NCBI GenBank assembly: GCA_028277945.1
Contig: JANQFH010000021.1
Span: 124,001 to 188,000 of the forward strand
Source: Oligoflexia bacterium
Lineage (GTDB): Bacteria > Bdellovibrionota_G > JANQFH01
DNA: 64,000 nucleotides
Reading direction: 5' to 3'
Shown here: in pieces, positions 7,102 to 37,885 of the stretch
Numbering within the stretch: the first letter of the stretch is position 1
Layout: each line of letters starts with the position of its first letter
Translations under genes and position numbers: made by a program
The notes under the pieces: generated by a model
Seen by the model: the letters and a program-made list of their open reading frames with translations, nothing else
The model's database searches: none
Told to the model about the DNA's origin: nothing

Positions 7102-7472
7102 TTAAGTCTTTCGTTTACTAAGCGTCTTAGCAGCGACGATAAACTCTTCAATGGTAGCCAGATAGTCTTTATCGGTAACATCAACATAATCATGAACAGC
7201 TAAGTTGCGGTCTTCAACAAAGGCAAGCCACTTTTCAACATCATCAATCAAACCAAGTCTACCTGCGTGCTTAATAATTTCCTTTGGTCCATACGCTTCA
7301 ATGCCAGCCTCTTTAACCAGAGCAAGGAGGAATTTCCAGGCGTATTCTAAGCAGACTTCAAAAGATTTTGAGATACCGTAGAAGTAAAAAGCATCTTTTT
7401 AATCTTGTGCCTGAAAGTCCACGCATGCTCAAGGGAGACGATGCTTTCCAGAAATCTACTACGCTGCCTCAT
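7102..7472 (-). pseudogene. hepT: HepT-type HEPN toxin, frameshifted
   Basis: Starting at the ATG of 7472-7470, which overlaps the MntA stop (ATGA), the frame encodes a HEPN/HI0074-like protein but is broken in the A5 run at 7396-7400, where one base is missing. Restoring it gives about 123 residues ending at TAA 7104-7102, with KDAFYFYGIS after the break, then PKEIIKHAGRLGLIDD and EDRNLAVHDYVDV. The last segment holds the Rx4HxY signature of HepT RNases (R, H and Y in RNLAVHDY), so the catalytic and modified residues are intact. HepT cleaves RNA unless its tyrosine is AMPylated by MntA. The break may be inactivation, a homopolymer sequencing error or slippage on the A-run. Confidence 0.75.
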
Positions 7473-8026
7473 TTTTTATATTTGCTAACCTTCTCCTGCA
7501 GCATTAGCCAATCTTGACGTTTACCCGTCAGAAATGCCCAATTGTGTGCAATAGACTGCAGAAAATCATCATCAGCTCGATTCAAATTCGCTACATCAAC
7601 AAAAATAGGTTGTGACTCTTCAATCTCGCTCTTTTTTCTAAGCAAGCGCCTAAACTCCTTGTGCTCAATACCTTTGGCAGAGAAGACGCCGATGTCTAGG
7701 TCAGCATACTTTGAATGCTTTTGGCTTGCACGCGAACCACACATGACAAACGTCCAGTTAGGAAAACCTGTTGCCAGACTATCAACAATATTTGCCACCA
7801 AAGCGTCCTGCTGAGACCGGCTCTTATGATGGACTAAGACCTTAGACAGCTCGAGCTGAAGAAAGTCGAGCATTTTCTCTAAGTTATTCGAAACAACTCC
7901 CCTGCCAACAAAGTAACCTTGAACGGTATTACGATGTAGGCCGACGACAGCTGCCAGCTGCTGAATGGAGCTAATGCCGCGCGCCTTCATCGCCTCCTCA
8001 ATCTCTTGCCTATCCAAACAATACAT
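7469..8026 (-). CDS. mntA: HTH-MntA antitoxin nucleotidyltransferase
   Basis: 185 residues. Residues 19-40 form a helix-turn-helix (IQQLAAVVGLHRNTVQGYF), followed by a minimal nucleotidyltransferase domain: GSRA at 97-100, D109 and D111 in YADLDIGV, and a third aspartate in IFVDVANL (about 144), so all three metal ligands are present. MntA antitoxins AMPylate the tyrosine of the HepT RNase. Here the antitoxin is fused to a DNA-binding module and precedes the toxin, with a four-base stop/start overlap. An inverted repeat overlaps its promoter, so the fused HTH is a good candidate autorepressor. A second ATG at 7990 with an AGGAGG just before it is an alternative start, which would remove 12 residues but keep the HTH. 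Confidence 0.85.
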   Translation of the reverse strand: MYCLDRQEIEEAMKARGISSIQQLAAVVGLHRNTVQGYFVGRGVVSNNLEKMLDFLQLELSKVLVHHKSRSQQDALVANIVDSLATGFPNWTFVMCGSRASQKHSKYADLDIGVFSAKGIEHKEFRRLLRKKSEIEESQPIFVDVANLNRADDDFLQSIAHNWAFLTGKRQDWLMLQEKVSKYKK

Positions 8027-8749: not shown

Positions 8750-9436
8750 CTATGTCAACAATTTATCTATTCCATCAATATACTTAGATATTTTTGTAAG
8801 ACGAAAGGGAAAATAGGACGTAACGCTTTCGGCATCGTCATCATGGTCAGCATCATATTTCATCTCTACAATAGTCTCGCCTCGGTCTAAGGCTCGAGCT
8901 AAAAAAAGATTTTCTGTCTGATTAAGTAGGTAGTGACGTATGTCTGAATCAACTGTTATTCTAAAACGTTTGCAAGACGAGATATAATAACTTCTAAAAT
9001 ATCGATTTAGTATTTTGATCTCGAGTCCCTTTAACCTAAGCTGCCACTGTCTGGGAATTTCCGAGCGATGTAATGATTGGCTTAAGTCCTCCATTGAGAA
9101 TCTGTCGCTGATCAAGAATGGTTCGAGTGGATACCGTTCTTTCCAACCTACCACTCCACACTTGTGCTTTATTTCCAAAGTCGGGTTGGTGATTTTGCCA
9201 AACAGATGTCCATACCAACGCACTCTAATCTTGAGGCGTCGGTCAAGACCGGCAATATTGGCCTGGTAGTTTGAGAAATCAAGCGTATCGAGATAGAGGT
9301 TATTAATATAACGAGGTTCAAAAAGTGCGCGAAAATGGGATGGATGTGTTTTCAAGAGGGCTTCCGTTTCCTCTATTGATAGTGTGTCTACAAAGGCCTT
9401 ACGTTCGTATCGGCAGTCTATTTTCTTTCTTGCCAT
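8750..9436 (-). CDS. VTC-domain protein (polyphosphate polymerase type)
   Basis: 228 residues, the size of the VTC catalytic domain alone. The family's tunnel residues are visible in order: RYERKAFV (9-16), KIRVRWYG, TLEIKHK, RSYYIS, RITVDSDI and IVEMKYD, giving the ring of Lys/Arg/Glu that in yeast Vtc4 binds triphosphate and extends polyphosphate from ATP. There is no membrane segment or SPX domain. In many bacteria such proteins are encoded with DUF4956 and CotH proteins, both of which follow here. Only 28 bases separate its ATG from the divergent alkaline phosphatase start, so at least one of the promoters lies inside coding sequence. Whether it makes polyphosphate is inferred from the family. 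Confidence 0.85.
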   Translation of the reverse strand: MARKKIDCRYERKAFVDTLSIEETEALLKTHPSHFRALFEPRYINNLYLDTLDFSNYQANIAGLDRRLKIRVRWYGHLFGKITNPTLEIKHKCGVVGWKERYPLEPFLISDRFSMEDLSQSLHRSEIPRQWQLRLKGLEIKILNRYFRSYYISSCKRFRITVDSDIRHYLLNQTENLFLARALDRGETIVEMKYDADHDDDAESVTSYFPFRLTKISKYIDGIDKLLT

Positions 9437-9464
9437 TTATTGAAAATTTTAACAGATTAAGGCG

Positions 9465-10730
9465 GTGATGGGTAGGTTCTTCAGGTTCGTTGCTTCTTTG
9501 CTGTTCTTGCCGTTTGCCTTAGCGATTACAACGTCAGCAGAGACAAAACTTCAGGCAAAGAGTGCCATTTTGTTTATTGCAGACGGTATGGGATTGGCGA
9601 TGATAACGGCAGCAAGAATTTACGACAGAGGAGTCAGCGGACAACTGCACATAGACCTTTTTCCGAAAACGGCTATTGTTAAGACTCATTCAAGTGATAA
9701 TATTGTTACAGATTCCGGTGCCGCAGCTACAGCTATAGCGACAGGAGTAAAAACTAACAACAATGTGATTGGTGAGGATAAAACCGCCATTTTTAAGCGT
9801 AGACATGGCAAGAGGCTGACTACCATAGTTGATCTTGCTGTAAAAGCGGGAAAATCAGTAGGGCTAGTAACGACCAGACGGGTTACAAACACAACGCCCG
9901 CGGCATTCTATTCGCATCATCATAACAAGTTTGCCGAGTTAGCCATCGCAGGTCAATTTGTTGATGATGAGCTGCGGCCGCATGTTCTTCTCGGAGGAGG
10001 CCGTCGTTTTTGGCTTCCATCGAAGGGCGGTCGAAATTTGCTTCAGGAGCTTAAAGTCAAAGGTTATACCTACGTAGATAGCAAAAAGGATTTAGAGAAG
10101 GTTAAGTCAAAGAACACAGAAAAGTTGATTGGTCTATTTTCTATGGATGACATGAGCTATGAACTAGATAGGAACAGTGTGGATAGTACGCAGCCAACTC
10201 TTGCCGAAATGACCAGCACTGCGATCGAAGTTCTCGGTAAGAATCCATCCGGTTATTTCTTGATGGTTGAAGGTGGGCGGATCGATCAAGCAGCACATAA
10301 CAATGACGTATTGAGAACGATTACCGACATTCTAGCATTCGACGAGGCTGTCGGGGTAGCCATGAAGGCTGTAGATGTAAAACAGACGCTTTTGTTAATG
10401 ACCTCTGACCATGAAACCGGGGGTTTTACTGTTAGCGGAAGTGCGCCCGTAGATACAAAAGGAAAGGCTCTACTTGGCAAGTCTCCGATGGGTAGGATAA
10501 AGGGCTATCCGATGGTGAACTGGGCTAGTGGTCCAGGTCGTCAACGTCGACCTGTCGGAAAAATCAAATCGCAGGAACATCTAAGTCATTCTCTCATTCC
10601 TTCGAGACTTTCAGAGCATACGGCTGTCGACGTCATACTTGCTGGTATGGGGCCGGGATCTCAAAAGGTACACGGGTTTCTCGACAATACAGAGATTTTC
10701 ACGATCATCAAAGCTGCTCTTAATATCTGA
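9465..10730 (+). CDS. Alkaline phosphatase (PhoA family)
   Basis: 421 residues with a signal peptide (cleavage near residue 25), so periplasmic or exported. Metal-binding D40 is in LFIADGMG, the catalytic serine 84 is in TDSGAAATAIATG, and the distal metal ligands include LMVEGGRIDQAAH and TSDHETGG. It hydrolyses phosphomonoesters to free phosphate. A good SD (AAGGCGG) precedes the ATG. It is divergent from the VTC gene, and the phoB/phoR/pst genes lie 9 kb away, so phosphate starvation control is plausible, though no convincing Pho box is seen. The VTC-CotH-DUF4956 genes flank it, which ties the phosphatase to that locus. The spacing of metal sites is standard. Confidence 0.92.
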   Translation: MMGRFFRFVASLLFLPFALAITTSAETKLQAKSAILFIADGMGLAMITAARIYDRGVSGQLHIDLFPKTAIVKTHSSDNIVTDSGAAATAIATGVKTNNNVIGEDKTAIFKRRHGKRLTTIVDLAVKAGKSVGLVTTRRVTNTTPAAFYSHHHNKFAELAIAGQFVDDELRPHVLLGGGRRFWLPSKGGRNLLQELKVKGYTYVDSKKDLEKVKSKNTEKLIGLFSMDDMSYELDRNSVDSTQPTLAEMTSTAIEVLGKNPSGYFLMVEGGRIDQAAHNNDVLRTITDILAFDEAVGVAMKAVDVKQTLLLMTSDHETGGFTVSGSAPVDTKGKALLGKSPMGRIKGYPMVNWASGPGRQRRPVGKIKSQEHLSHSLIPSRLSEHTAVDVILAGMGPGSQKVHGFLDNTEIFTIIKAALNI

Positions 10731-10746
10731 TATAGTGTCTGAATTT

Positions 10747-13332
10747 CTATTGCGAATCATAGAGTGTTTTACTTAAATTCTTACTGTTTGACGCCATTTT
10801 CCTACCATCGATTGTCAATAATGACTCATCTTCTACAAGATAAGGGTTGCTGACGTTTTTTGTTTTTACCGACCTTACTTGTAGATAGCCTGGTCCATAC
10901 TCGCTCTTTTTTTGATAGCTCGATAAGCCAATTTTACTATCCAGCAGAGATAAGCCATTAACCTGTATTTTTGATAAGTCTTTGCTTGCTATACCTATAT
11001 ACGCACCCCGAATTATTGCCTGGGTCACATTGGCAACGCTGGCTTCTCCAAAACTGAAAGCCTTGTCTCCAGCCGAATTGATAGCAATGCGATCAAGATT
11101 AACATAGCTACCCGAGACGTCTATGGCATCGTTGCCAACCTGATCAAACGTAGTGCTGGCGACTGATCCAGTTGAAAAATCAACGTCTATGGCGTCTAAG
11201 TAGACCGATTTAAAAGTACAATTTCTCACCGTAAACTTAGAACGGACAATATTGAGAAAGTCGTCACCATCTCGATTTGATTCGAATAGCGTTCCCGATA
11301 TCTCAACATCGGATTCATAGAACGTTATTGCACCAGTAAGCGACCATCCGGGGTATACAGGTGCCGACAAGCCAGAGAATCGAACTTGTTTTATGAAAGA
11401 CTTACCGTCGGCCTGTACAACAACCACGCCATGACCGCCATGGGTTGAGTCGATGGTAATCGGTCGATCCTTGGATCCCAGAAGATAAAGTGGTGAATAG
11501 GTGATTATAGTCGCACTATCACGTAAGTTAAGACGTAGCCCGGCGTGACCGTAGACTACAAAACCTGGAGGAATGACAAGATTTTTTTTAATAGACCAAT
11601 CACCGTGCACAAAATGGATTTCCTTCATCGAGTCACTGATGTCTAGAAACGGTCGGTCTCGAAAACTAGACCTTTTCAGTTTTAGGTCAGTTTCTATCAT
11701 TGCTTTTGAAAAACGCTTTACAGGTATGACATCAAGTGACTGTTCATTCCCACTGCCGAGTAACTGAAAGGAAATTCTAATCGGCTTCTCTTTAGAATGA
11801 GCGTTACGGATCGTTTTTCCCCCTTCGAAGGCCAGCTCTTTATATTTTACGGGATCAGCTGCCTTCTTACCTGAGACAATCATTCTTTTCTTAGGTGTAA
11901 GCGTTAGGTCATCGCCCACAAAAACATGTAAAATCTCGACTGGAAAGTGTTGTAGGTTGCCCACCTCCAGAAGTAACTGTTTCTCATCCACGGATTCGAC
12001 ATAGGCATGGATGGTTTTAATCGGTTTTAATAACGCGCGAATCCTGGTCTGATTGTTATAGAAAAACCTTTTGGAGAATCGATAGTTAGGAAATTCCGTC
12101 GCTATGATATTGAGATTTTTGTTCAGTTCCGCATCACACTTGTTGATAAGAGCATCGAAGTAGTCCTTTGCGGCAACTCTTTTCAGAGCCTGGACATACG
12201 CCTCGACAAAAAGATAATCATTGAATAGCCTGTTAATGAAGGCCATCTGGTAAGGACGATAACCATCGTTCAACCACCAAGATGGAATTCTTACCGATTT
12301 TCCAGAATGGATTTCTTTGCCTATTGGTTCGAGCTTAGAAGTGAAAGGATTTAGATAGAACTTCATATCCTTCCAATCAAACTCGTCGGAAGCGAACAAC
12401 ACGTGAAGAGCCATACTAAAAGCCAACTTTTGTACATCAAAAACTTCTGAGGCTTTCATGGTTTTTAATCTAAAGGCTTCAAGAAGAGAGGTCGCCTTAA
12501 TAAAATTCTCTTCGGCTAAAGAGTGACGTACAATGCTGCCCGTCTCTGATCCGTCAATTCTGGCGGATAGAAAAGAGCCATCGAGATTGTATACTGGTAT
12601 GCCACTACGATTGCGTCGACGATACTCTTGAACCCAGATGTCCTTGCTGTAACCAACAATCGGTCCCTCTCGGTAACCGCTATGCTCTAGGGCGTGTTTT
12701 CCAAAGTGCTCTTCTAGAGCGTAAATTCCATGACTTTTACCGTTGATTATCACCTCTACAAATTTATATCTCAGCGAAATCATTCCTTCATCAGCCAGAG
12801 CCTGTAAGAATAGCCACTCATGGATAAACTGGCGTGTTTGCGGATGTTGTAAGGAGAAACGTTTCATCCCCATGATTGTGTTGTTTCCACGAGCTTTTAC
12901 GAGAAACGACCATTTCTTTCTGTCTCTCCAGTGATCAGGCCAGACACCTTTTAGGCGCAACCGCACCTTAATATTTTTGCCATTGTAGCGAATCCTTGCA
13001 GGAACGTAATGCAAACTTGTTGGAAAGTGTATGCGATCTTTCAGCGCGACATGTCTATCGAAACGAATCTTTTGATAATCCTTATGTTTTATATCAATGA
13101 CTATTCTCTCGATATCAGCAGTCAACTTGGCTCTCTGTTGGCGATAAAGTTTCGTGAAAAGGTTTGGCCTATTTACATTTTCGTTAAAAAAATCAGTGTG
13201 ATAAAGAAGGAACAGCACGGTAACACAAATAAATACAAGTACTAAAGATATGAGTCTTACAGTTCGTGCTCTATCTTTAAGATAGGAGATGATGCGGGAT
13301 AGTGACGACGAATGTGTCTTAATTTTCATCAA
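10747..13332 (-). CDS. CotH-family kinase-like protein with C-terminal beta-helix
   Basis: 861 residues. One N-terminal transmembrane helix (about 26-44) is followed by a large exported region. Residues 90-380 fit the CotH (spore-coat kinase) family: RLRLKGVWPDHW, KKWSFLVKARG, QHPQTRQFIHEWLF, KSHGIYALEEHFGKH and the ASDEFDWKDMKFYLNP core. The segment that usually carries the second catalytic Asp reads EPIGKEIHSG, with a possible Asp-to-Glu change. The C-terminal third (about 600-830) is a right-handed parallel beta-helix with repeated short strands (VRNCTFKSVYLDAIDV, TTFDQVGNDAIDVSG). It follows DUF4956 with a one-base gap and is on the same strand as the VTC gene, across the convergent phoA. 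It probably acts on the periplasmic side; the substrate is unknown. Confidence 0.8.
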   Translation of the reverse strand: MMKIKTHSSSLSRIISYLKDRARTVRLISLVLVFICVTVLFLLYHTDFFNENVNRPNLFTKLYRQQRAKLTADIERIVIDIKHKDYQKIRFDRHVALKDRIHFPTSLHYVPARIRYNGKNIKVRLRLKGVWPDHWRDRKKWSFLVKARGNNTIMGMKRFSLQHPQTRQFIHEWLFLQALADEGMISLRYKFVEVIINGKSHGIYALEEHFGKHALEHSGYREGPIVGYSKDIWVQEYRRRNRSGIPVYNLDGSFLSARIDGSETGSIVRHSLAEENFIKATSLLEAFRLKTMKASEVFDVQKLAFSMALHVLFASDEFDWKDMKFYLNPFTSKLEPIGKEIHSGKSVRIPSWWLNDGYRPYQMAFINRLFNDYLFVEAYVQALKRVAAKDYFDALINKCDAELNKNLNIIATEFPNYRFSKRFFYNNQTRIRALLKPIKTIHAYVESVDEKQLLLEVGNLQHFPVEILHVFVGDDLTLTPKKRMIVSGKKAADPVKYKELAFEGGKTIRNAHSKEKPIRISFQLLGSGNEQSLDVIPVKRFSKAMIETDLKLKRSSFRDRPFLDISDSMKEIHFVHGDWSIKKNLVIPPGFVVYGHAGLRLNLRDSATIITYSPLYLLGSKDRPITIDSTHGGHGVVVVQADGKSFIKQVRFSGLSAPVYPGWSLTGAITFYESDVEISGTLFESNRDGDDFLNIVRSKFTVRNCTFKSVYLDAIDVDFSTGSVASTTFDQVGNDAIDVSGSYVNLDRIAINSAGDKAFSFGEASVANVTQAIIRGAYIGIASKDLSKIQVNGLSLLDSKIGLSSYQKKSEYGPGYLQVRSVKTKNVSNPYLVEDESLLTIDGRKMASNSKNLSKTLYDSQ

Positions 13333-13333
13333 T

Positions 13334-14014
13334 TTAAACTAATCTATTATCGAGAAAGGAAATCTTTAAGGTGTCGTCTTCTTCAGTTAGTTTGCGACGT
13401 GTTAGTTCCAGGCTATTGAAGTCAGCAAATTCGACGTAAAATACTGCTTCCAAAGCATCGTTGGTTTCGTCAAAACGTTTTAAGTCTACCGATAAGCAAG
13501 AATCCGATAAGATCTTAGTAATCTTTTCAAGCGAAAACTTTTTTCCAGCTTGGCTACTAATACTCAAAAACGTAAATTTATTCTGCTCCGTTCTCTGGCC
13601 ATGTCTTCTCAATATGATCAGAGACATAATCGTTAAGCTCGCGACGAGGGTTATTAGCCGTTGGTCTGCGCCGAGTCCTAAGCCAATCGCAATTGTCAGG
13701 AAGAGATAAGTCAGTTCCTCCGGATCTTTGATTGCTGCACGAAACCTGACGATTGATAGAGCGCCTACTAGGCCAAGCGAAAGAGCTAGTGAAGATTTGA
13801 CAACCGCAATAATAAACATAGTGGTCATTGCCATGATTACAAAGTTATTTGCAAACCGCCGACGGTTTGAGAGGGCACGGCCGTACTTTACGTAGATATA
13901 CTGTAAGAGATAAGCGAGCACGAAGACTATGATTAGGTTGGTCACGAAGCCAAGCACAGGGATATTAACGCTATGAGTCGTCATAAATTCTTGGAAAGTT
14001 TGTGACTTATTCAT
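13334..14014 (-). CDS. DUF4956 membrane protein
   Basis: 226 residues. About four transmembrane helices fill residues 20-136, followed by a soluble alpha/beta C-terminal domain of 90 residues. The hallmark conserved block of DUF4956 is present (GALSIVRFRAAIKDPEE at about 84-100, between helices). The family has no established activity but occurs repeatedly with VTC and CotH proteins. Here it precedes the CotH gene on the same strand with a one-base gap, implying one transcript. A model consistent with the arrangement is a membrane partner that moves or presents the product of the VTC domain; this is inference only. Confidence 0.85.
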   Translation of the reverse strand: MNKSQTFQEFMTTHSVNIPVLGFVTNLIIVFVLAYLLQYIYVKYGRALSNRRRFANNFVIMAMTTMFIIAVVKSSLALSLGLVGALSIVRFRAAIKDPEELTYLFLTIAIGLGLGADQRLITLVASLTIMSLIILRRHGQRTEQNKFTFLSISSQAGKKFSLEKITKILSDSCLSVDLKRFDETNDALEAVFYVEFADFNSLELTRRKLTEEDDTLKISFLDNRLV

Positions 14015-14102
14015 TTCTACTCTCCTCTACCGCTATACTTTACAAGATTTTGCCATGAACTGACAGCCGCGATAAGATAAAAACAACAGGGATATTCTAA
14101 CG

Positions 14103-15605
14103 GTGTCTGTCAATCAAAGTTTTGCGAAGTGGTTACCTAAAACAAAGATAGCTCTTCCTTACTTGTCCATCGCTTTAATTACTGTTTTAGTCAACTTTTC
14201 AGTGAGCCCCACGGTTATCGCTAATGGCACAGATCGCGAGGTGTTCAGGTATATGGGCATGTTAATCAGTCTAGGGGGCATGCCTTATTTAGATGCTTTT
14301 TATGATAAGCCGCCACTAATCTACTTGTTGGCCGCCTTGGTTCATGGGATGGGTCCCTGGGGGCTGTGGTTTTTGGAGTGTGTGTTTGTTGCGGTCGCGG
14401 CAATGGTCTTCTACAGATTCGCCAAAGTTCAAGGTTGGGTATTTCCTTGTTTGCATGCGCTACTTCTTGTTATTTGGTTACGTACGCCTGGAGAGGTCTG
14501 GAAGGATGGCGGTCGTTATGGAGACACACGGTCGTTTGTCGCGCCCTTGTTAATGATACTTTTCGTTTTGTTATGTAGCAAGATTAACAAACGTTTTCTA
14601 ATCGGTGGTGTAATAGCAGGCGCCTTAGTGATGCTACAACAGGAAGCTCTTTTGCCTTTAATGGGATTTGTTCCGGTTTTATTATACAGCCATCCTCGTA
14701 AGATACAGATTGTCTCGGAGTTTATCATGGGCGTTATGCTGGCAGTGGGTTCAATCTTATTGTGGCTATATAGTGGTGACGCGTTTGGGACATTTTACAC
14801 GCAAACGGTTGACTTTGCTTTCTCGTATCATGTCTCGCTTTTGGAACGCCTAGGCCTTATAGCCATGCTTCCTGGCAAACTGCTCTACTTTCAATGTTTG
14901 GTGCCACTGGTTCTTGTTGTCTTTGTCGGTTTAGTAATGATTAGAAAAAATAAGATCGGTTATCTTGAGGTTGCCATTTTTTTAGCATTGTTCATGCAGC
15001 TCATTTCTATTTCCTTAACTGGTAATTTTATGTGGGACTATTTTATTCCCATTTTCCCCTTTCTGAGTCTGGCTACAGGATTTGCGGTTACAAGACTTTG
15101 GCAATGGAAGGGTAGTGTTGTGGCCATTGTCGTTGCTTCAGCCATTTACATAACCCCATTTTTACCTGTAGCGAAAGTTCTAGGTAGGACCTATTTTGGT
15201 ACTAGAGCACCTGACTACTATTCGAGATTTGCACCGGTAAAACAAGAGATCGAACATCTTCACGGCAGTCACGGTGAGTTTTTTGCAATGCGTGAAGGGC
15301 GGGCTCTGTCAATTAACACAGATCTAGAAATCATTGCACCGACAAAATGGATTCACTACTACGTTGACAAAAAAGCTGGGCACAATACAGAGGCAAAAAT
15401 TAAGAAATTCAACGATGGCGTTTCAGAACTCGACAGTATTCTGACGGATTTGGAGCTCGCTGAAACCTCTTACATACTCGATAATACAGGCAATTTACCC
15501 TTAGGTCGAGATCCACAGAGTAAGTGGATGGCCTATCTGAAGCAACACTACGATCCTATCCTGCAAAATCAAAAGTACGGTGTGCTTTGGAAAAGACGAA
15601 AATAG
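14103..15605 (+). CDS. GT-C type membrane glycosyltransferase-like protein
   Basis: 500 residues with roughly ten transmembrane helices. The first extracytoplasmic loop holds DREVFRYMG (44-52) and the DKPP motif (68-71), the acidic and DKPP elements of ArnT/PMT-type transferases that use polyprenyl-phosphate-linked sugars. A soluble C-terminal region (about 385-500) follows. Substrate unknown: lipid A, a glycan or a protein are all possible. The start is a GTG at 14103. It is divergent from DUF4956 with an 88-base gap, and lies beside the VTC/CotH cluster, so a surface-modification role is the natural guess. Confidence 0.75.
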   Translation: MSVNQSFAKWLPKTKIALPYLSIALITVLVNFSVSPTVIANGTDREVFRYMGMLISLGGMPYLDAFYDKPPLIYLLAALVHGMGPWGLWFLECVFVAVAAMVFYRFAKVQGWVFPCLHALLLVIWLRTPGEVWKDGGRYGDTRSFVAPLLMILFVLLCSKINKRFLIGGVIAGALVMLQQEALLPLMGFVPVLLYSHPRKIQIVSEFIMGVMLAVGSILLWLYSGDAFGTFYTQTVDFAFSYHVSLLERLGLIAMLPGKLLYFQCLVPLVLVVFVGLVMIRKNKIGYLEVAIFLALFMQLISISLTGNFMWDYFIPIFPFLSLATGFAVTRLWQWKGSVVAIVVASAIYITPFLPVAKVLGRTYFGTRAPDYYSRFAPVKQEIEHLHGSHGEFFAMREGRALSINTDLEIIAPTKWIHYYVDKKAGHNTEAKIKKFNDGVSELDSILTDLELAETSYILDNTGNLPLGRDPQSKWMAYLKQHYDPILQNQKYGVLWKRRK

Positions 15606-19580: not shown

Positions 19581-20234
19581 TTAAGTGGTATGGCGGATGA
19601 TGTCGCCCTCGACCATGTAGACGACGTCTTCGGCAATGTTGGTTGAGAGGTCTGCGATCCTCTCTATCTGTCGTGCCGTAGAGAATATATCCAGTGCCTG
19701 GTCAATTTCATCCGGCTTGCTATGCATGCGTTGACGTAACTCTTTGACGATGTTGCGGTGACACTGATCAACGACATCGTCCTGCTTGCAGACTTGCTTT
19801 GCTCCGGCCACGTCTCTGTTTACAAAGGCATCTAGGCTGTTGCGCACCATGGTTAGCGTTGCCTGGGTCATCTTTGTCAACCCCTCTGGCATTTGAGTAG
19901 GTGTCTCCTTTGCCAGCGAGAGCGCACGTTTGGCAATGTTGACAGCGCAATCGGCCATTCTCTCTAGATCGTTGTTGATCTTCATGACCGAAGTGATGAA
20001 ACGTAGATCTTCGGCCACCGGTTGGTGCAGTGCGAGCGATTTAAGACAGTGTTCTTCGATTTCAACTTCCGCATCGTCGACCTTACGATCGTTGCTGACT
20101 ACTTCTTGTGCCAATTCAGCGCGTCGTTCTTTAAAAGCAGCGAGGGCTTTCTGTACTGCCTCTTCCACAAGTGCACCAACTTCAAGCAGAGCTCCTTTTA
20201 AGTAGTCTAAATCTTTCTGTAGATGCTTTGACAT
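19581..20234 (-). CDS. phoU: Phosphate transport system regulator PhoU
   Basis: 217 residues made of two PhoU-type helical repeats (about 10-105 and 115-205), each with the acidic metal-binding helix motif (VSNDRKVDDAEVEIEE, ITSVMKINNDLERMADCA, then STARQIERIADLSTNIAEDV). PhoU links the Pst transporter to the PhoR kinase and restrains the Pho response when phosphate is plentiful. A clear AGGAG precedes the ATG by seven bases. It follows pstB by 14 bases in the pstCAB-phoU order, so it belongs to the phosphate operon. Confidence 0.96.
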   Translation of the reverse strand: MSKHLQKDLDYLKGALLEVGALVEEAVQKALAAFKERRAELAQEVVSNDRKVDDAEVEIEEHCLKSLALHQPVAEDLRFITSVMKINNDLERMADCAVNIAKRALSLAKETPTQMPEGLTKMTQATLTMVRNSLDAFVNRDVAGAKQVCKQDDVVDQCHRNIVKELRQRMHSKPDEIDQALDIFSTARQIERIADLSTNIAEDVVYMVEGDIIRHTT

Positions 20235-20248
20235 CTTTTTCTCCTCTG

Positions 20249-21010
20249 CTAACCAAACTTACCGGTGACGTAATCTTCAGTTTGTTTTACTTTAGGTCGA
20301 GTAAAAATGAGCTCAGTGGGTCCATATTCAATCAACTCTCCCTGGTACATAAACGCCGTGTGATCGGAGACTCTTGCCGCCTGTTGCATGTTATGAGTAA
20401 CGATAACAATCGTATAGCGTTGCTTGAGTTCAAATAGCAGATCCTCAATGCGTCTGGTCGAGATAGGATCAAGTGCGGAACAGGGCTCATCCATGAGGAT
20501 AACCTCAGGCTCCATGGCGATCGTCCGGGCAATACAGAGCCGCTGCTGTTGGCCACCAGAGAGCGACAGCCCATCTTGATCTAACTTGTCGCTCACTTCG
20601 TCCCAAAGAGCGGCCTTTTTTAGGGCCTCTTCAACACGTTGTTGTAGTGAGCCAGGGTAGCCGTTGATCCTGGGACCCCAAGCGACATTCTTAAAAATGG
20701 TCTTTGGGAAGGGGTTTGGCTTTTGAAACACCATGCCAATAGCGCGTCGCAGCGATACTACATCGACGCTGGTTTCATAGATGTTCTGTTCACGAAAGCG
20801 CACCATGCCCGTGGTTCTGACGCTGGCAATAAACTCATTCATACGATTAAAGGCTCGCAGCAGCGTGCTCTTGCCACAACCACTGGGGCCGATAATGGCA
20901 GTGATGCTTTTTTCCGGGATAGACAAGTTGATGTGACGAACAGCTTCCAGGGTACCGTAGGCAATGTTTAGATCTTTAGTCTCTAAGATAGGATGATTCT
21001 CTCCCGGCAT
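20249..21010 (-). CDS. pstB: Phosphate ABC transporter ATP-binding protein
   Basis: 253 residues from the ATG at 21010. I prefer this start over the upstream one at 21040 because AAGGAG lies four bases before it and the length fits PstB. Walker [12 protein letters not shown], signature [17 protein letters not shown], Walker [14 protein letters not shown] and the switch histidine ([13 protein letters not shown]) are all intact. It powers high-affinity phosphate import. It sits between pstA and phoU with gaps of 10 and 14 bases. Confidence 0.97.
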
Positions 21011-21020
21011 GGTTCTCCTT

Positions 21021-21896
21021 TTAGTGCTGCTCTCTTTCAAAATGGTTTCGTGAGAGTATGGCCACTGCGTTCATCGTCAACAACAGTAGAAGCAAGACAA
21101 TGATACCAGCCGCAGCGATATTGTGAAACTCATGTTGTGGTCGTGAGGCCCAGTTAAAAATTTGAATTGGCAGGGCAGTAAAGGGGTCGCTGAGTCTTTC
21201 GGGTACAAACGCCACATAGGTTAGAGCGCCAATCATAATGAGAGGCGCGGTTTCACCGATAGCCCGTGACATTGCCAGGATGACCCCGGTCATCATGCCA
21301 GGAAAGGCGCTTGGTAAGATGTGGTCCCGGACCATCTGCCAGCGACTGGAGCCCAGTGCCAAGGCGGCAAAGCGGATTGAGTCGGGGATGGCCTTTAGCG
21401 CCTCTTGTGAGGCGATGATAATCGTAGGCAGGATTAGCAGGCTCATGGTTAACGCTCCAGAGATTACGCTCCGTTCTAGATTAAGCCAGCGCACGAAAAT
21501 GACCAACCCCAACATGCCATAGACAATAGAGGGAACTGCCGCCAAATTGGCGATGTTGAGTTGGATAAAACGGGTAAACCAATTCCTAGCAGCAAACTCT
21601 TCCAGGTAGATACTCGCACCCACACCAACAGGTATAGAGAAGAGTGCGGTGCAGCCTATTAACCAAGTGCTTCCCCATAGCGCTGACTTGATTCCTGCTC
21701 TAGCAGGGAAACGCGATGGAAAGCTCGTCAGAAACTGGCTATCGAGGTAGGCATAGCCATCACGGACAATATCGATCAGCAAGACACCGAGCAACACGAT
21801 ACCAAAGAGGGTTGAGGCTACACAGACCAGCAGAGAGACTTTGCCAACAAGCTTTCGTCGCTTCAGGTTTTTCTCAAGTTTCCTTGTGTCGAACAT
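21021..21896 (-). CDS. pstA: Phosphate ABC transporter permease PstA
   Basis: 291 residues from the ATG at 21896, which overlaps the pstC stop by one base (TGATG); an in-frame TTG one codon earlier is less likely. About six transmembrane helices, with the permease coupling motif in the second half ([22 protein letters not shown]), typical of PstA. It forms the phosphate channel with PstC on the PstB ATPase. Hydrophobic segments and length (about 290) agree with the family. Confidence 0.95.
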
Positions 21897-22807
21897 CAAT
21901 CGTACCTCTCTCGAAACCTTGCCAGTAGCTTCTGAGCGAGGAAGTTCATCAGTAAGGTAATCACAAACAGCGTCAAGCCAACAGCGAAGATCGTCTGATA
22001 CTCAATGGTCCCAGCCGGCGTGTCGCCAAGGCTCACCTGCACAATGTAGGCTGTCATGGTTTGAATACTCTCGAAGAAGTTGAGTGTTAGCTTTGGCGTA
22101 GCACCAGCAGCTAAAGTGACGGCCATGGTTTCGCCAATAGCTCGGGAGAGTGCCAACACAAACGAAGCAACAATGCCGGAGAGTGCCGACGGCAGAACAA
22201 CGCGGAAAGAGACATCGTATTTGGTGCTGCCAAGAGCGTAGCCGGCGTATCGCAGACTTCCTGGCACGGCGCGCATGGCGTCGTCCGAGAGCGAAGCCAC
22301 TGTAGGTAAGATCATAATGCCAACGACGATTGCTGCGCTTGCTGCGTTGAAGACCTCAATCTCTGGATAGAGCTTTTGCAGCAGAGGTGTGACAAAAGTC
22401 AGGGCAAAGTAGCCATAGACCACAGTGGGAATGCCCGCGAGGATTTCCAAAATGGGTTTGAGGATTTGTCGGGTTTTGCGGTCAGAGTATTCACTGAGAA
22501 AGACAGCGGCAAAGGTGCCAAGAGGTAGGGCAATGATCGCTGCGCCCAAAGTGATCAGAAGCGTTCCAGAGATGAGCGGTAGTACTCCAAAATGGCGTGG
22601 TTCAAAGAGCGGGGCCCATTTAAGGCCGGTAAAGAAGGCGAGGGGCGATATTTCGCGGAAAAAGATAAAGCTTTCACTTAAAAGTACCCAGATAATACCG
22701 AGCGTGGTTAGCACGGATACTATGGCACACAGAAACAGGCCGGTCTGGATAAGGATCTCACCAAAACGCCACCGTCCCTTTAAGCTCGGTTGGGTTACCG
22801 CGGTCAT
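21896..22807 (-). CDS. pstC: Phosphate ABC transporter permease PstC
   Basis: About 303 residues from the ATG at 22807; an upstream TTG at 22819 is possible. Six transmembrane helices. The ABC permease loop ([19 protein letters not shown]) and an inner-membrane topology match PstC. It is the first Pst gene after phoR, with an 87-base gap in which no convincing Pho box is visible. The substrate-binding protein gene pstS, usually next to pstC, is not in this window. The permease pair would need it from elsewhere in the genome. Confidence 0.94.
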
Positions 22808-22894
22808 AGTCGCTGGCAACCTACGCTGCTTTCATTAAGATCTGTTAAAGATGGTGTTGTTTGTCGGTGTTTGATAGTAATAGTTTGAATTTAT

Positions 22895-24187
22895 TTAATC
22901 TTTTACGCTGAGTGGTAGGGAGACAGTAAACTGACTCCCCTTGCCAACGCTACTTTCTACTTTGACCTCGCCTTTCATCCCCTGAACCAGGTGTTTGACG
23001 ATTGCGAGTCCAAGGCCGGTTCCCATCTGTGACCGGTCTCGGCTTTTGTCTACCTGATAGAAACGTTCGAAAATGCGCTCAAGTTCATGTTCAGGGATGC
23101 CGATGCCCGTGTCCGCGACCTCAAGGATGGCTCGATTCGCTTGGCAATAAACCCGGACCCTGATTGTTCCACCAGCATGGGTGAATTTGATAGCATTATC
23201 AATGAGGTTATCGAGAAGCTGATGGAGTGTCTGTGAATCGGATTTGACCAGAATGGCGCGATCTTTTTCCATCTCTAATAGTAATTTCAGCTCCAGCCTC
23301 TGTTGTTTTATTCGCTGATGATGTCTTGAGACAGCTTCAGTGACAATAGGGACTATATCGAGAACAGTGTAGTGTTGTGACATTTTTCCAGATTCGATTT
23401 TTGTAAGCGACAACAGGTCGTTTGTCAGATTGATAAGACGATCGACGTTTTTATCGATCTGTGAAAGAAAATGGGCTTGGGTCGCTGAATCTGTGGTGGA
23501 AGATTCCAACAAGGTATCCACGTAGCCTTTGATTGCCGTCAATGGCGTTTTTAGCTCATGCGAGGCATTATCAACAAAGGTTTTGCGAATTTTCTCTAGT
23601 CTGCGGAGTGGTGTGATGTCATGAAACACTAGTACTACACCTTTGGCTTCCTTAAGATCGATAGGGGCGGCATGACTGCTGAGAAAAAGCTCCTCCTGAT
23701 TTTGATAGGCAAAAATTTCGCGTTGCACAACTTTATCTCTGTGCCGAACTTCCTTAATCATTTCGTTTAACTCAGGTATACGAACGACCTCAACTAGATT
23801 AGCCGTCTCTTCTATGTGAGGAGGTATGTTGAGTAGCTGCTGCGCGGTTTGGTTATAGAAGAGTATACGGTTCTGATGGCCAATGGCCACTACCCCTTCA
23901 ATCATACCACTGAGTATAGCCTCTAATTTTGTACGATCCTGCTCTATCAAATCAAGTTGTTTGGTCCATTGGGCGCCAAGCTGATTGAGGGTCCTGCCAA
24001 GCTGTCTCAGCTTGCCTCGCGGCAACTCGTCTACCTTTCTGTTGTAGTCGCCTTCCAGCATTGCCGTAGCAGCTTTAATGAGACGCTGCATAAATCGTTG
24101 TCTGCGATTGATAAGAAAAAAGACGACACCTAGGAGAATGACAAAACCAGAGAGAGCCAATGGTGTCGTCGTCAAGGACCAGGTCAA
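22895..24187 (-). CDS. phoR: Phosphate sensor histidine kinase PhoR
   Basis: 430 residues. One N-terminal transmembrane helix (12-30), a HAMP-like juxtamembrane helix, a PAS domain (about 80-190, EGVVAIGHQNRILFYN), a HisKA phosphoacceptor box FVDNASHELKTPLTAIKGY and an HATPase domain (DNAIKFTHAGG, DTGIGIPEHE, GTGLGLAIVKHLV). This single-helix PAS layout is characteristic of PhoR, which senses phosphate through PstSCAB-PhoU. The ATG is two bases after the phoB stop, so the two are translationally coupled. Confidence 0.95.
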   Translation of the reverse strand: MTWSLTTTPLALSGFVILLGVVFFLINRRQRFMQRLIKAATAMLEGDYNRKVDELPRGKLRQLGRTLNQLGAQWTKQLDLIEQDRTKLEAILSGMIEGVVAIGHQNRILFYNQTAQQLLNIPPHIEETANLVEVVRIPELNEMIKEVRHRDKVVQREIFAYQNQEELFLSSHAAPIDLKEAKGVVLVFHDITPLRRLEKIRKTFVDNASHELKTPLTAIKGYVDTLLESSTTDSATQAHFLSQIDKNVDRLINLTNDLLSLTKIESGKMSQHYTVLDIVPIVTEAVSRHHQRIKQQRLELKLLLEMEKDRAILVKSDSQTLHQLLDNLIDNAIKFTHAGGTIRVRVYCQANRAILEVADTGIGIPEHELERIFERFYQVDKSRDRSQMGTGLGLAIVKHLVQGMKGEVKVESSVGKGSQFTVSLPLSVKD

Positions 24188-24189
24188 CG

Positions 24190-24882
24190 TTACTTATCCT
24201 TGAATCGGTAGCCAACTCCGCGAACGGTGATAATCCAGTCGGCATGTCTTTTGAGTTTTCTGCGCAGAGAGGCAATGTGAACATCGACATTGCGATCGAC
24301 AATGCTGATATCGCTGCCACGCACTTGATTGATCAACTGATCGCGAGTAAACACACGCCCGGGTCTAGACGCCAGAGTGGCCAATAGGCGAAATTCAGAC
24401 AGGGTCAGAGCTAGCGGTGTGTTATCGATGGCTGCCTCATATTTACCCGTGTTAATGACCAAGGGTCCACGACAAATCAGGTTAAGATCCTGCTGCGAAT
24501 CATCGAGGTCTGTTCGTCTTATGACGGCTCTGATGCGGGCGATGAGTTCTTTGGCACGAAAGGGCTTAACGACATAATCGTCGGCACCCATATTGAGACC
24601 GGCAACGACGTCACTCTCCTCCCCCTTTGCAGTCAGGATTATAATGGGAATAGATTTGGTCGCCTTGTCTTGTTTTAACAGCTCGCACAGCTCTAACCCG
24701 CTAATGTAGGGTAGCATGAGGTCCAAGAGGATGACATGGACGGACTCAGGCTTTGCAAGCTTTAATCCTTGTCTACCATCTTTGGCAGCGAACGTCTTGA
24801 AACCTTCACGATGGAGATTGAATTGGAGGACTTCGACGATATCTGGATCGTCTTCAACAATGAGAATTTTTCTATCTACCAT
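24190..24882 (-). CDS. phoB: Phosphate response regulator PhoB
   Basis: 230 residues. Receiver domain (1-120) with the acidic pair in IVEDDPD, the phosphoacceptor Asp in ILLDLMLP and K in YVVKPF, followed by a winged-helix DNA-binding domain (130-228, LALTLSEFRLLATLASRPG, VDVHIASLRRKL, VRGVGYRF). It activates the Pho regulon. It heads the phoB-phoR-pstCAB-phoU block. The 122 bases between its start and the next plus-strand gene (25005) hold the divergent promoters; no strong Pho box could be picked out by eye. Confidence 0.96.
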   Translation of the reverse strand: MVDRKILIVEDDPDIVEVLQFNLHREGFKTFAAKDGRQGLKLAKPESVHVILLDLMLPYISGLELCELLKQDKATKSIPIIILTAKGEESDVVAGLNMGADDYVVKPFRAKELIARIRAVIRRTDLDDSQQDLNLICRGPLVINTGKYEAAIDNTPLALTLSEFRLLATLASRPGRVFTRDQLINQVRGSDISIVDRNVDVHIASLRRKLKRHADWIITVRGVGYRFKDK

Positions 24883-34620: not shown

Positions 34621-35412
34621 ATGCCTTCCACACCAATCAAGAAATTTGACAAAGATTCTGTGGTATTCCGCGAGGGCGATTTGGGTGAAGAGATGTACAT
34701 CATCCATCGTGGCAGGGTGCGTATTGTCAAACAGATGAGCTCTAAATTTGAAACCCTTGGTGTGTTGGAACGCGGTGATTTTTTTGGCGAGATGGCGATT
34801 ATCGATAACCTACGACGAACCGCAACGGTCATAGCCATAGAAGATAACACAGAGCTGATTGCAATTAACAAAGCTCAATTTGAAGATATGCTAAAAAATC
34901 AGATTGAAATCGCTATACGTATGATTCGTAAATACGCCCACCGACTCAGAGAGAGCAACGAACGTGTGGAGAAGATGATTCGAGACAAGCAAGAAATAGA
35001 CACTGGCATTCAAGATATTCTTAGCCATATTCGTAAGAGGTCAGACGACAGAGAAGAGGGCTCGGAGATTTTTGGCTGGCTACAGCACAACGCCTCTAGC
35101 AGTAGTTTTCCATTAAAGCGCCCCGAAGTTTTAGTAGGGCGTCAAGATTCTGTCACTAGAATCCATCCAGATATCGATCTTACAAGCATAGACGATAACA
35201 GGACAGTAAGTCGACGGCATGCGCGCATAAGCTGCATGGAGGACGGTGTATACGTCAGCGAAGAGATCGGCGCTACAAATGGCACTCTCTTAAATAGCAG
35301 GCAGATAGATAAGGGGAAGATCGTTCTTATCAAACACAACGACCAACTAAATTTCGGCGAACTTGGATTTACGGTCGTTTTAAATGCAGAAAGCTCTGAA
35401 GAAAACAAATAA
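34621..35412 (+). CDS. cNMP-binding/FHA domain protein
   Basis: 263 residues. Residues 5-120 form a cyclic-nucleotide-binding barrel (VVFREGDLGEEMYIIHRG, GDFFGEMAIIDNLRRTATV), without a DNA-binding HTH. After a coiled linker, residues 165-255 form an FHA domain, with the conserved GR (LVGRQDS), SRRH (TVSRRHARI) and N (GATNGTLLN) that recognise phosphothreonine. The protein could couple a small-molecule signal to Ser/Thr kinase signalling. It runs towards the TPR-kinase gene, whose stop codon is one base away, so the two are convergent. That adjacency is suggestive of kinase-FHA pairing. Confidence 0.88.
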   Translation: MPSTPIKKFDKDSVVFREGDLGEEMYIIHRGRVRIVKQMSSKFETLGVLERGDFFGEMAIIDNLRRTATVIAIEDNTELIAINKAQFEDMLKNQIEIAIRMIRKYAHRLRESNERVEKMIRDKQEIDTGIQDILSHIRKRSDDREEGSEIFGWLQHNASSSSFPLKRPEVLVGRQDSVTRIHPDIDLTSIDDNRTVSRRHARISCMEDGVYVSEEIGATNGTLLNSRQIDKGKIVLIKHNDQLNFGELGFTVVLNAESSEENK

Positions 35413-35413
35413 G

Positions 35414-37885
35414 TTAACCCGTAGCCTTTTGAGATGATTCCAACCTAGTGCGAATTTCGGTAACACTCTGATAACGATCCTCAGGTTTTTTCTGAATACA
35501 ACGCTCTACGATCTCGGTCAAGTATTCGGGGGTATCCTGGCGTATGTTTGCAAGAGGAGTTGCAAGAGTATGAAGGTGATGATAGCCGATGTCACCACGA
35601 TCGAAAGGTGGTCGTCCCGCTACCATCTCGTATAGGGAGATTCCCAGCGCATAGATATCCGTGCGGTGATCAATGGTCTGTCCGAGAATCTGTTCCGGGG
35701 CCATGTAGATCGGCGACCCTTGCGATCGAGTACTGCCTGACATCGACTCTTCGACAATTTTGGCAAGACCAAAGTCGGTAATTTTTACGATTTTGTCATT
35801 GGTCCAAAGAATATTTGCACTCTTTATGTCTCGATGCACAATATTTTTTTGATGGGCATAAGCAAGTCCCTGACATATCTGATTACAAATCATAGCTATA
35901 ACGTTAAAGGGCAGATTACAGGAAGAGTCGATAATTTCTTTGAGATTCACCCCGTCCACGAATTCCATGACGATAAAGTAATTTTGCGATTCGGGATCCA
36001 CCTCAATATCATATATGGTAACAATATTCGTGTGGTTCAAACGTGCAGCTGAGCGCGCCTCTTTGAGGAACTTTTCATTGTCCTCCTGTCTTGCTGTGAG
36101 TGCGGGCGGTAAAAACTTCAAAGCAACCGTACGTTGCAACATGCTATCCGCGGCCTTATAAACCACGCCCATGCCACCTCTGCCGACTTCTCTGTCAATT
36201 TTGTAGCGTTGTTTGATAACCTTTGCGCTCTCTGCCGTTTTTTGCTCAATGCTTGGCTTTTCAAGCGCCTGTCTCTTGGCAAGCGCATCTTTGTAGTGAT
36301 AGTCCACAGCCAATACTTGATCGTAGATCTTTGCTGCTTCCTCAAGCTGATTTTGCTTTTGTCGCAATTCAGCAAGATCGTAGAAAAAATCTAGCGTATT
36401 CTTTTCTACTGAAAGATCTTCAACTGCCTTTTCCAGCTTTTCGCTTGCAAGACTCTCCATATCCCGTTTAAGAAATATGCGGCCCAAAAGGTTGCAGGCA
36501 TAACGGTAGTCAGGGGAATCTGGATCAATCTGCTGCAGAAAGGTTATCGCCTTATCGTCGTCCTTATCCAGCAGGTACATTCCAGCTTCGAGAAAAGAGC
36601 TACCCTTTGCCAACATGGCCAGGTACTCTGCTTCCTGGTTGAGCTCGAGATAGCATTTGGCCGCCGAGCTAAAGCGGTTTGCCTGGGCATAACACCGCGC
36701 CGCATCCTCTAACCTGTTGGCATTTTGGTAAGCGGTGCCGGCATCTGCAAGTTGGCCTATCTGTTCAAACAGAGCAGCAGCCTCTTCGTGCTTGTCTATG
36801 TCACGAAACAGATTGGCTGCTTCCTGCAACCTTCCAGCTTTGCGGAAGCTGTCCGCGGCGCGTATTTTTTCGCCCTTTTTTAGATCTATGTGAGCGCGAT
36901 ATTCGGCTGCTGCCTTGGTCTTGCCAGCTTTCTCCATTGCCAGGGCCACGGCCTCGTGGTCTTCGAGGCTCTTATAGGTGGCAATAGCGTCGTCAAAATC
37001 GCCTGCCTTCTCAAAACATGCAGCGGCTTTTTGCCGCTGATCACACTTGAGAAAGATTCCGGCCGCCTCAGCGTATTGACCAGCTGCTTCCAGAGCTTCA
37101 GCACCCTCTTCCCGATTGCCGCCCTGCAGGTATATCGCAGCCGCCTTTTCGTAATCGGGTACCATTGTGTAATAGTCTCCCGATTTTTTCGAGACACCTT
37201 TCAGAAAGGCATGACGTTTTCCTAGCGTCTTCTCATCGATTTTATCCTGTGACTTTTGACTCTCCTGCAGAAATTCCGTTTCAAACATCTGTGCATTGTG
37301 GAGATAGCTTTGCTCCTTATTATACATCTCCTCTGCTTTCTTGAGATATTTGATGCTTTGATAGAGAAGACCGGCCTGCATACAATCGCCAGCGTGCTCG
37401 AACTGTTCTGCGGCCTCAAGAGGACGCTTTACTTTATGGTAAAGCTCTGCCGCCTTAAGAGACTCGCCCTCCTGAGCATAGTATTTTGCGGACATATCAA
37501 AGTCTTTGCTTTTCTCAAAATTTTCCGCCGCGGCTAAGTACTGACCAAGTTTGACGCAACACTGTGCTGCTTTTTTGTAGTTCCGTGCCTTTATGAAATA
37601 GCGTTTGGCTTTTTCAAACTTTCCTTTTGCAAAGAGCCTGCCAGCGCGTTTGTTAGCGCTTTCAGTAAAGGGTGCGATGAACAACCTATGAAAGAGAAAG
37701 AAACAACCCAGTAAAAATATAATTAGAATGACGGCTATTAAAACTGAAAAAATCGTCTCTTTATAAGGTAAAGGTGGTATGGCGTCATACAGGTTGTTAA
37801 TAAAGAGTTGCAGTTTTTTGAGATACGGAGAGACCTCGGGAAAGAATTCACTGATTTTTTCTATGATACTATCAGTTGGCATCAT
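35414..37885 (-). CDS. Membrane-anchored TPR protein with C-terminal Ser/Thr kinase
   Basis: 823 residues in an unusual order. One N-terminal transmembrane helix (24-48) is followed by a long helical array (about 75-560) of short AA-rich repeats of the TPR/Sel1-like kind (AAELYHKVKRPLEAAEQFEHAG, AAACFEKAGDFDDAIATYK), and only then the kinase domain (about 566-820). The kinase has GRGGMGVVY (P-loop), VALKFLPP (Lys), IVHRDIKSANIL (catalytic loop), TDFGLAKI (DFG) and SPIYMAPEQILG (APE), so it is predicted to be active. Most bacterial kinases have the kinase domain first. The def gene overlaps its 5' end by 14 bases. Confidence 0.88.
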   Translation of the reverse strand: MMPTDSIIEKISEFFPEVSPYLKKLQLFINNLYDAIPPLPYKETIFSVLIAVILIIFLLGCFFLFHRLFIAPFTESANKRAGRLFAKGKFEKAKRYFIKARNYKKAAQCCVKLGQYLAAAENFEKSKDFDMSAKYYAQEGESLKAAELYHKVKRPLEAAEQFEHAGDCMQAGLLYQSIKYLKKAEEMYNKEQSYLHNAQMFETEFLQESQKSQDKIDEKTLGKRHAFLKGVSKKSGDYYTMVPDYEKAAAIYLQGGNREEGAEALEAAGQYAEAAGIFLKCDQRQKAAACFEKAGDFDDAIATYKSLEDHEAVALAMEKAGKTKAAAEYRAHIDLKKGEKIRAADSFRKAGRLQEAANLFRDIDKHEEAAALFEQIGQLADAGTAYQNANRLEDAARCYAQANRFSSAAKCYLELNQEAEYLAMLAKGSSFLEAGMYLLDKDDDKAITFLQQIDPDSPDYRYACNLLGRIFLKRDMESLASEKLEKAVEDLSVEKNTLDFFYDLAELRQKQNQLEEAAKIYDQVLAVDYHYKDALAKRQALEKPSIEQKTAESAKVIKQRYKIDREVGRGGMGVVYKAADSMLQRTVALKFLPPALTARQEDNEKFLKEARSAARLNHTNIVTIYDIEVDPESQNYFIVMEFVDGVNLKEIIDSSCNLPFNVIAMICNQICQGLAYAHQKNIVHRDIKSANILWTNDKIVKITDFGLAKIVEESMSGSTRSQGSPIYMAPEQILGQTIDHRTDIYALGISLYEMVAGRPPFDRGDIGYHHLHTLATPLANIRQDTPEYLTEIVERCIQKKPEDRYQSVTEIRTRLESSQKATG

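Follow-up and report, generated by a model that had tools for sequence, protein, structure and literature searches.

The genes for DUF4956, CotH and VTC proteins form a real, strongly linked module that recurs as a tightly spaced operon in many phyla, and in the 64,000-nucleotide stretch of Oligoflexia DNA analyzed here (the window) this module encloses an alkaline phosphatase gene. On the minus strand lie the genes for a VTC-domain protein (8750–9436; 228 aa, Pfam E 2e-20), a protein combining a CotH-like kinase domain with a right-handed beta-helix (10747–13332; 861 aa, CotH E 4e-6, Beta_helix E 5e-4) and an MgtC-like DUF4956 membrane protein (13334–14014; 226 aa, Pfam E 8e-17), and on the plus strand lies the gene for a PhoA-type alkaline phosphatase (9465–10730; 421 aa, Alk_phosphatase Pfam E 1e-93). 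The phosphatase gene splits VTC from CotH, being convergent with CotH at a distance of 16 bases and divergent from VTC across a 28-base gap (9437–9464). The first-pass annotation had described such a locus with a phosphatase inside, the 28-base spacing of the two starts and a phoBR/pst cluster about 9 kb away, and all three are confirmed by the coordinates, the sequence and the Pfam assignments: the VTC start at 9436 and the PhoA GTG at 9465 leave 28 bases, or 31 if the in-frame ATG at 9468 is used, and the cluster of phoU, pstB, two pst permease, phoR and phoB genes (19581–24882, minus strand) is separated from the phoA end by 8.9 kb and from the edge of the locus by 5.6 kb.

Conservation was assessed on 100 loci, 80 from a GTDB genome scan with DUF4956 alignment and 20 from a further genome survey, which are not all independent because at least one contig is in both sets, L028 and L094 being apparently identical. 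Gene families across the loci were made by iterated HMM search, and the 87 loci in which a DUF4956 gene was called served as the base for trio counts. The complete trio was present in 60 of these 87, most commonly in the order DUF4956-CotH-VTC (19 loci) and next as CotH-DUF4956-VTC (13 loci), with a median spacing of 3 nt between trio genes and less than 30 nt in 131 of 161 neighbouring pairs; some loci carry no CotH or no phosphoesterase, and many contigs are truncated. Across 191 genomes, VTC was found in 19 and DUF4956 in 21, with both in 18, so that 18 of the 19 VTC carriers have DUF4956; CotH was found in 27, including 20 of the 21 DUF4956 genomes. Hypergeometric p values, not corrected for phylogeny, were about 3e-21 for VTC with DUF4956 and about 3e-20 for CotH with DUF4956, and the recurrent co-occurrence claimed earlier for the three genes is thus borne out. 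Bacterial carriers include Planctomycetota, Bacteroidota, Verrucomicrobiota, Pseudomonadota, Calditrichota, Patescibacteria and Anaerolineae, and archaeal carriers belong to three lineages (Methanogenium, Woesearchaeota and Nanohalarchaeota). Phyla are intermixed in the DUF4956 tree, many forks of which are weak, and the window protein lies on one of the two deep branches of this tree, which was built from the surveyed sequences and does not include those of Pel loci. Searches of plasmids and of viral contigs found no relatives. Glycosyltransferases and Wzy-type ligases are abundant among the immediate neighbours of the loci, as counted with no background set for comparison.

For the module proteins, topologies and folds were predicted by software. 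The VTC protein of the window scored 73.6 bits against PF09359 (cut-off 23) and matched the profile of yeast Vtc4 (3g3q, E 5e-14). Charged columns R9, E11, K13, K69, R71, R73, E88 and K90 are invariant in 20 sequences, as are K99, R148, R159, D163, E191, K193 and K218, and the window protein retains all of these basic and acidic tunnel residues. A transmembrane helix was predicted in none of 82 VTC proteins and likewise not in the window protein, and VTC is predicted from its sequence to be a cytosolic polyphosphate polymerase. It shares tunnel-domain residues and fold family with Vtc4 of the yeast VTC complex (PDB 3g3q), but has neither an SPX domain nor a fused membrane domain, and the candidate membrane partner here is DUF4956. 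In a search for PPK1 alone among the polyphosphate kinases, it was not found in this genome (a 95.6%-complete assembly) or in 12 of 18 other VTC genomes tested.

All 89 DUF4956 proteins have a predicted transmembrane helix, and the AlphaFold2 model of the window protein (pLDDT 86) consists of membrane helices and a C-terminal ferredoxin/ACT-like domain. Alignment of DUF4956 with the MgtC profile by hhalign gave a probability of 98.2 and an E value of 3e-14 over 195 columns covering the membrane and C-terminal domains, compared to 0.2 and 0.27 for an unrelated pst permease used as control; on this profile evidence, DUF4956 is MgtC-like. The S. intermedius homologue has likewise been termed MgtC-like (PMC12345266). 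A membrane domain and a C-terminal ACT-like domain are shared with the MgtC/SapB family, but DUF4956 falls below the Pfam MgtC cut-off and is a family of its own: PF02308 had no match in this genome at that cut-off, and the DUF4956 protein of a relative reached E 1.6e-6, also below it. No solved relative was found by sequence, and Foldseek matched only the C-terminal ferredoxin-like (ferredoxin/PII-like) domain.

The CotH protein scored 26.9 bits against PF08757 (cut-off 23.8) and matched B. cereus CotH by profile (5jd9, E 1e-16). That it is fused to a beta-helix, as annotated at first, was confirmed by an AlphaFold2 model (pLDDT 86) and by Foldseek, which returned 5jd9 at E 2e-12, with 5jda also matched, and then glycanase and lyase beta-helices; the modelled helix, with glycanases, alginate lyases and tailspikes among its matches, resembles glycan-active helices. 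A single N-terminal membrane helix is predicted, and such a helix is predicted in 59 of 66 long CotH proteins. At the positions of the canonical set of a catalytic Asp, an Asn and a metal-binding Asp (D228/D251 in B. subtilis), HMM alignment places Glu, Asp and Glu in the window protein. Among its relatives, the first position is variable, usually with a His beside it, and the last is Asp or Glu. The canonical Asp/Asn/Asp set is thus found neither in the window protein nor in most family members, so that the CotH domain may not be a kinase. The earlier suspicion that the second catalytic Asp is missing holds in that no Asp is present, but the position carries a Glu, and both residues are normal there in the family; acidic residues and the invariant motifs are retained, and the acidic pattern is altered and not simply lost. 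Compared with the Bacillus spore-coat kinase CotH (PDB 5jd9/5jda), the likeness lies in a kinase-like domain, seen both in profile searches and in the predicted structure, and the differences in the altered canonical positions and the added membrane anchor and beta-helix.

The window PhoA (315 bits against a cut-off of 24.4) has an N-terminal hydrophobic stretch and contains the motifs DSGAAATA, GGRIDQAAH, SDHETGG and SEHTAVD; it is one of two PhoA genes in the genome, the second being 51% identical to it. When the co-occurrence survey proposed in the first-pass annotation was run, none of the 100 loci compared proved to contain PhoA (HMM gene families), which is one half of what that annotation had named in advance as counting against its proposal, and PhoA was rejected as a general module member. 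The idea that a phosphatase belongs to the locus survives in a different form, because 27 of the 60 loci with the full trio carry a member of a divergent calcineurin-like phosphoesterase family, several of whose proteins Pfam misses. In five loci the phosphoesterase gene lies inside the trio, with the order DUF4956-CotH-phosphoesterase-VTC in four and DUF4956-phosphoesterase-CotH-VTC in one. Hydrophobic stretches are N-terminal in 22 of 28 members and C-terminal in 12 of 28, and the family is predicted to be mostly secreted. A search of the 191 genomes gave two matches above 200 bits, each within a trio locus. Their scores are inflated, as the training set included both proteins, but no other protein scored more than 140 bits; no member was found in this genome.

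The VTC, PhoA, CotH and DUF4956 genes, together with the gene for a 500-aa membrane protein, make up a contiguous low-GC3 block (8750–15605; GC3 0.39–0.45) in surroundings of higher GC, the window averaging 0.51 in GC3; such a block would fit horizontal acquisition. The 500-aa protein (14103–15605, plus strand, eight predicted helices, GC3 0.44) is encoded divergently from DUF4956, has no Pfam match and no homologue in any other surveyed locus, and is unproven as a module member. The 28-base divergent gap implies that at least one promoter overlaps a coding region or that transcription from CotH continues into VTC, antisense to phoA. Being separated from its partners by phoA, VTC needs such antisense read-through, as in a noncontiguous operon, or a promoter within phoA, and we infer that one of the two drives its expression. 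Signals in sigma-70 and terminator scans were near shuffle level. E. coli-type Pho-box matches at the locus were at chance level, and a strict scan was blank upstream of phoB too; the scans gave no Pho-box enrichment, and the phosphate-regulation cluster at 19581–24882 counts here as a neighbour of the module. No recognizable pstS gene adjoins that cluster.

As the phosphoesterase lies in or beside the PhoA slot in five loci and its family is absent here, PhoA may be a stand-in for it; it may also have come with the low-GC3 block, its GC3 of 0.43 being like that of the block and that of the second copy being 0.57, or it may be incidental. We give an even chance to the explanation that PhoA has no functional tie to its neighbours and arrived by chance in a horizontally acquired low-GC block, which concerns the role of PhoA only and is compatible with any other explanation of the module. 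Its absence from the comparison loci, its opposite strand, the GC3 values and the lack of a Pho box in the scans above all accord with a chance arrival, but PhoA occupies the position held by the phosphoesterase in other loci, in a genome without that family.

The trio was first reported beside Gram-positive pel genes (PMC7112168), and CotH, PPP, DUF4956 and DUF4832 genes accompany Gram-positive Pel clusters as accessory genes (PMC7112168; SIR_1591–1594 in PMC12345266), so that the initial description of the trio as of unknown purpose is partly outdated, both studies tying it to Pel exopolysaccharide. Common to the Pel accessory genes and the present locus are a polyphosphate polymerase, a secreted CotH, an MgtC/ACT-type DUF4956 and a tie to exopolysaccharide, whereas CotH carries a beta-helix here and FN3 in S. 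intermedius, and the DUF4832 hydrolase there contrasts with a phosphoesterase here. PelG was found in none of the 21 DUF4956 genomes, that is, neither here nor in the 20 others, with T. maritima as a positive control; the survey thereby separates the VTC-CotH-DUF4956 module from Pel clusters and contradicts the statement published in 2025 that the arrangement is not found outside Pel loci (PMC12345266). In S. intermedius, deletion of the DUF4956 homologue raised Pel and, in one medium, brought aggregation down to less than half, deletion of the CotH homologue lowered both Pel and aggregation, and cells with the VTC homologue (polymerase) deleted still aggregate and make Pel, with no defect reported (PMC12345266).

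We tentatively favour the view, at somewhat less than an even chance, that DUF4956, CotH/beta-helix and VTC constitute one envelope phosphoryl-transfer module. Cytosolic VTC would polymerize the gamma-phosphate of ATP into polyphosphate, and MgtC-like DUF4956 would dock VTC at the membrane and gate or pass the chain. Outside, the membrane-anchored CotH kinase domain, guided by the putative glycan-binding beta-helix, would phosphorylate a polysaccharide or a protein of the cell surface; as ATP is in short supply there, we hypothesize that the phosphoryl donor is probably polyphosphate. A secreted phosphoesterase, usually of the divergent calcineurin type and here probably PhoA, would reverse or trim the modification or recover phosphate. 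The predicted layout, with a polymerase inside, an MgtC-like protein in the membrane and a kinase-like protein and phosphoesterase outside, is best explained by transenvelope phosphoryl transfer. Trio linkage, topology, VTC residues, the failure to find PPK1, the glycosyltransferase and Wzy neighbours and the glycan-like beta-helix support this model, as do the altered Pel level and aggregation in the S. intermedius DUF4956 and CotH deletions (PMC12345266). It is weakened by the S. intermedius VTC-homologue deletion without reported defect, the altered canonical residues of CotH, the incomplete loci and the restriction of PhoA to this locus. MgtC proteins are also not known to serve as polymer channels, which weakens it further. 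The first-pass proposal of phosphoryl or polyphosphate chemistry at the envelope therefore draws support from the linkage and the predicted layout but not from PhoA, nor from the Pho-box scans, in which no site at the locus was outstanding. The most specific form of our model, in which the MgtC-like protein threads out cytosolic polyphosphate, extracytoplasmic CotH phosphorylates surface glycans with it as phosphoryl donor and a dedicated secreted phosphoesterase or PhoA acts as eraser, in a pathway widespread among bacteria and archaea, seems improbable.

It is rather unlikely that the module is instead a regulator of exopolysaccharide synthesis, in which DUF4956, with its MgtC-like and ACT-like domains, detects a ligand in the cytosol and adjusts how much polymer is made, VTC and CotH being phosphate-linked sensors or effectors and not a phosphoryl-transfer chain. 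The opposite changes in Pel upon deletion of the DUF4956 and CotH homologues (PMC12345266) would follow from such a function, and the MgtC-like character and the ferredoxin/PII-like C-terminal domain of DUF4956 would suit it, but a large exported CotH/beta-helix and a recurrent, mostly exported phosphoesterase suggest extracellular work, and VTC has the residues of a polymerase. Export of polyphosphate as a polymer of the cell surface or a store of phosphate, with CotH and its beta-helix as a mere glycan anchor and the phosphoesterase recovering phosphate, is unlikely: intact VTC, a membrane partner, no PPK1 found, the non-canonical CotH residues and a frequent phosphoesterase agree with it, but CotH keeps acidic residues and invariant motifs that would be needless in a pure anchor. 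Phosphoryl transfer across the envelope, as favoured here, bears on how polymers are phosphorylated outside the membrane and on the function of bacterial VTC proteins; the survey adds a recurrent phosphoesterase partner to the module and provides a pathway that occurs in many phyla with concrete roles that can be tested.

Several smaller observations concern the loci and the window. In three Anaerolineae loci (L112, L120 and L121), DUF4956 is fused to an N-terminal 3-keto-disaccharide-hydrolase-like domain, identified by Pfam on L112 only and counted in L120 and L121 by equal length, hinting at a glycan link. In two other loci, a protein resembling an HlyD-type membrane-fusion protein, identified by eye, adjoins VTC (L035:7011–8096 and L038:10932–11978). 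Elsewhere in the window, a helix-turn-helix is joined to a Pol-beta-type nucleotidyltransferase domain (7469–8026), and a cNMP-binding/FHA protein is encoded next to a TPR-Ser/Thr protein kinase (34621–37885).
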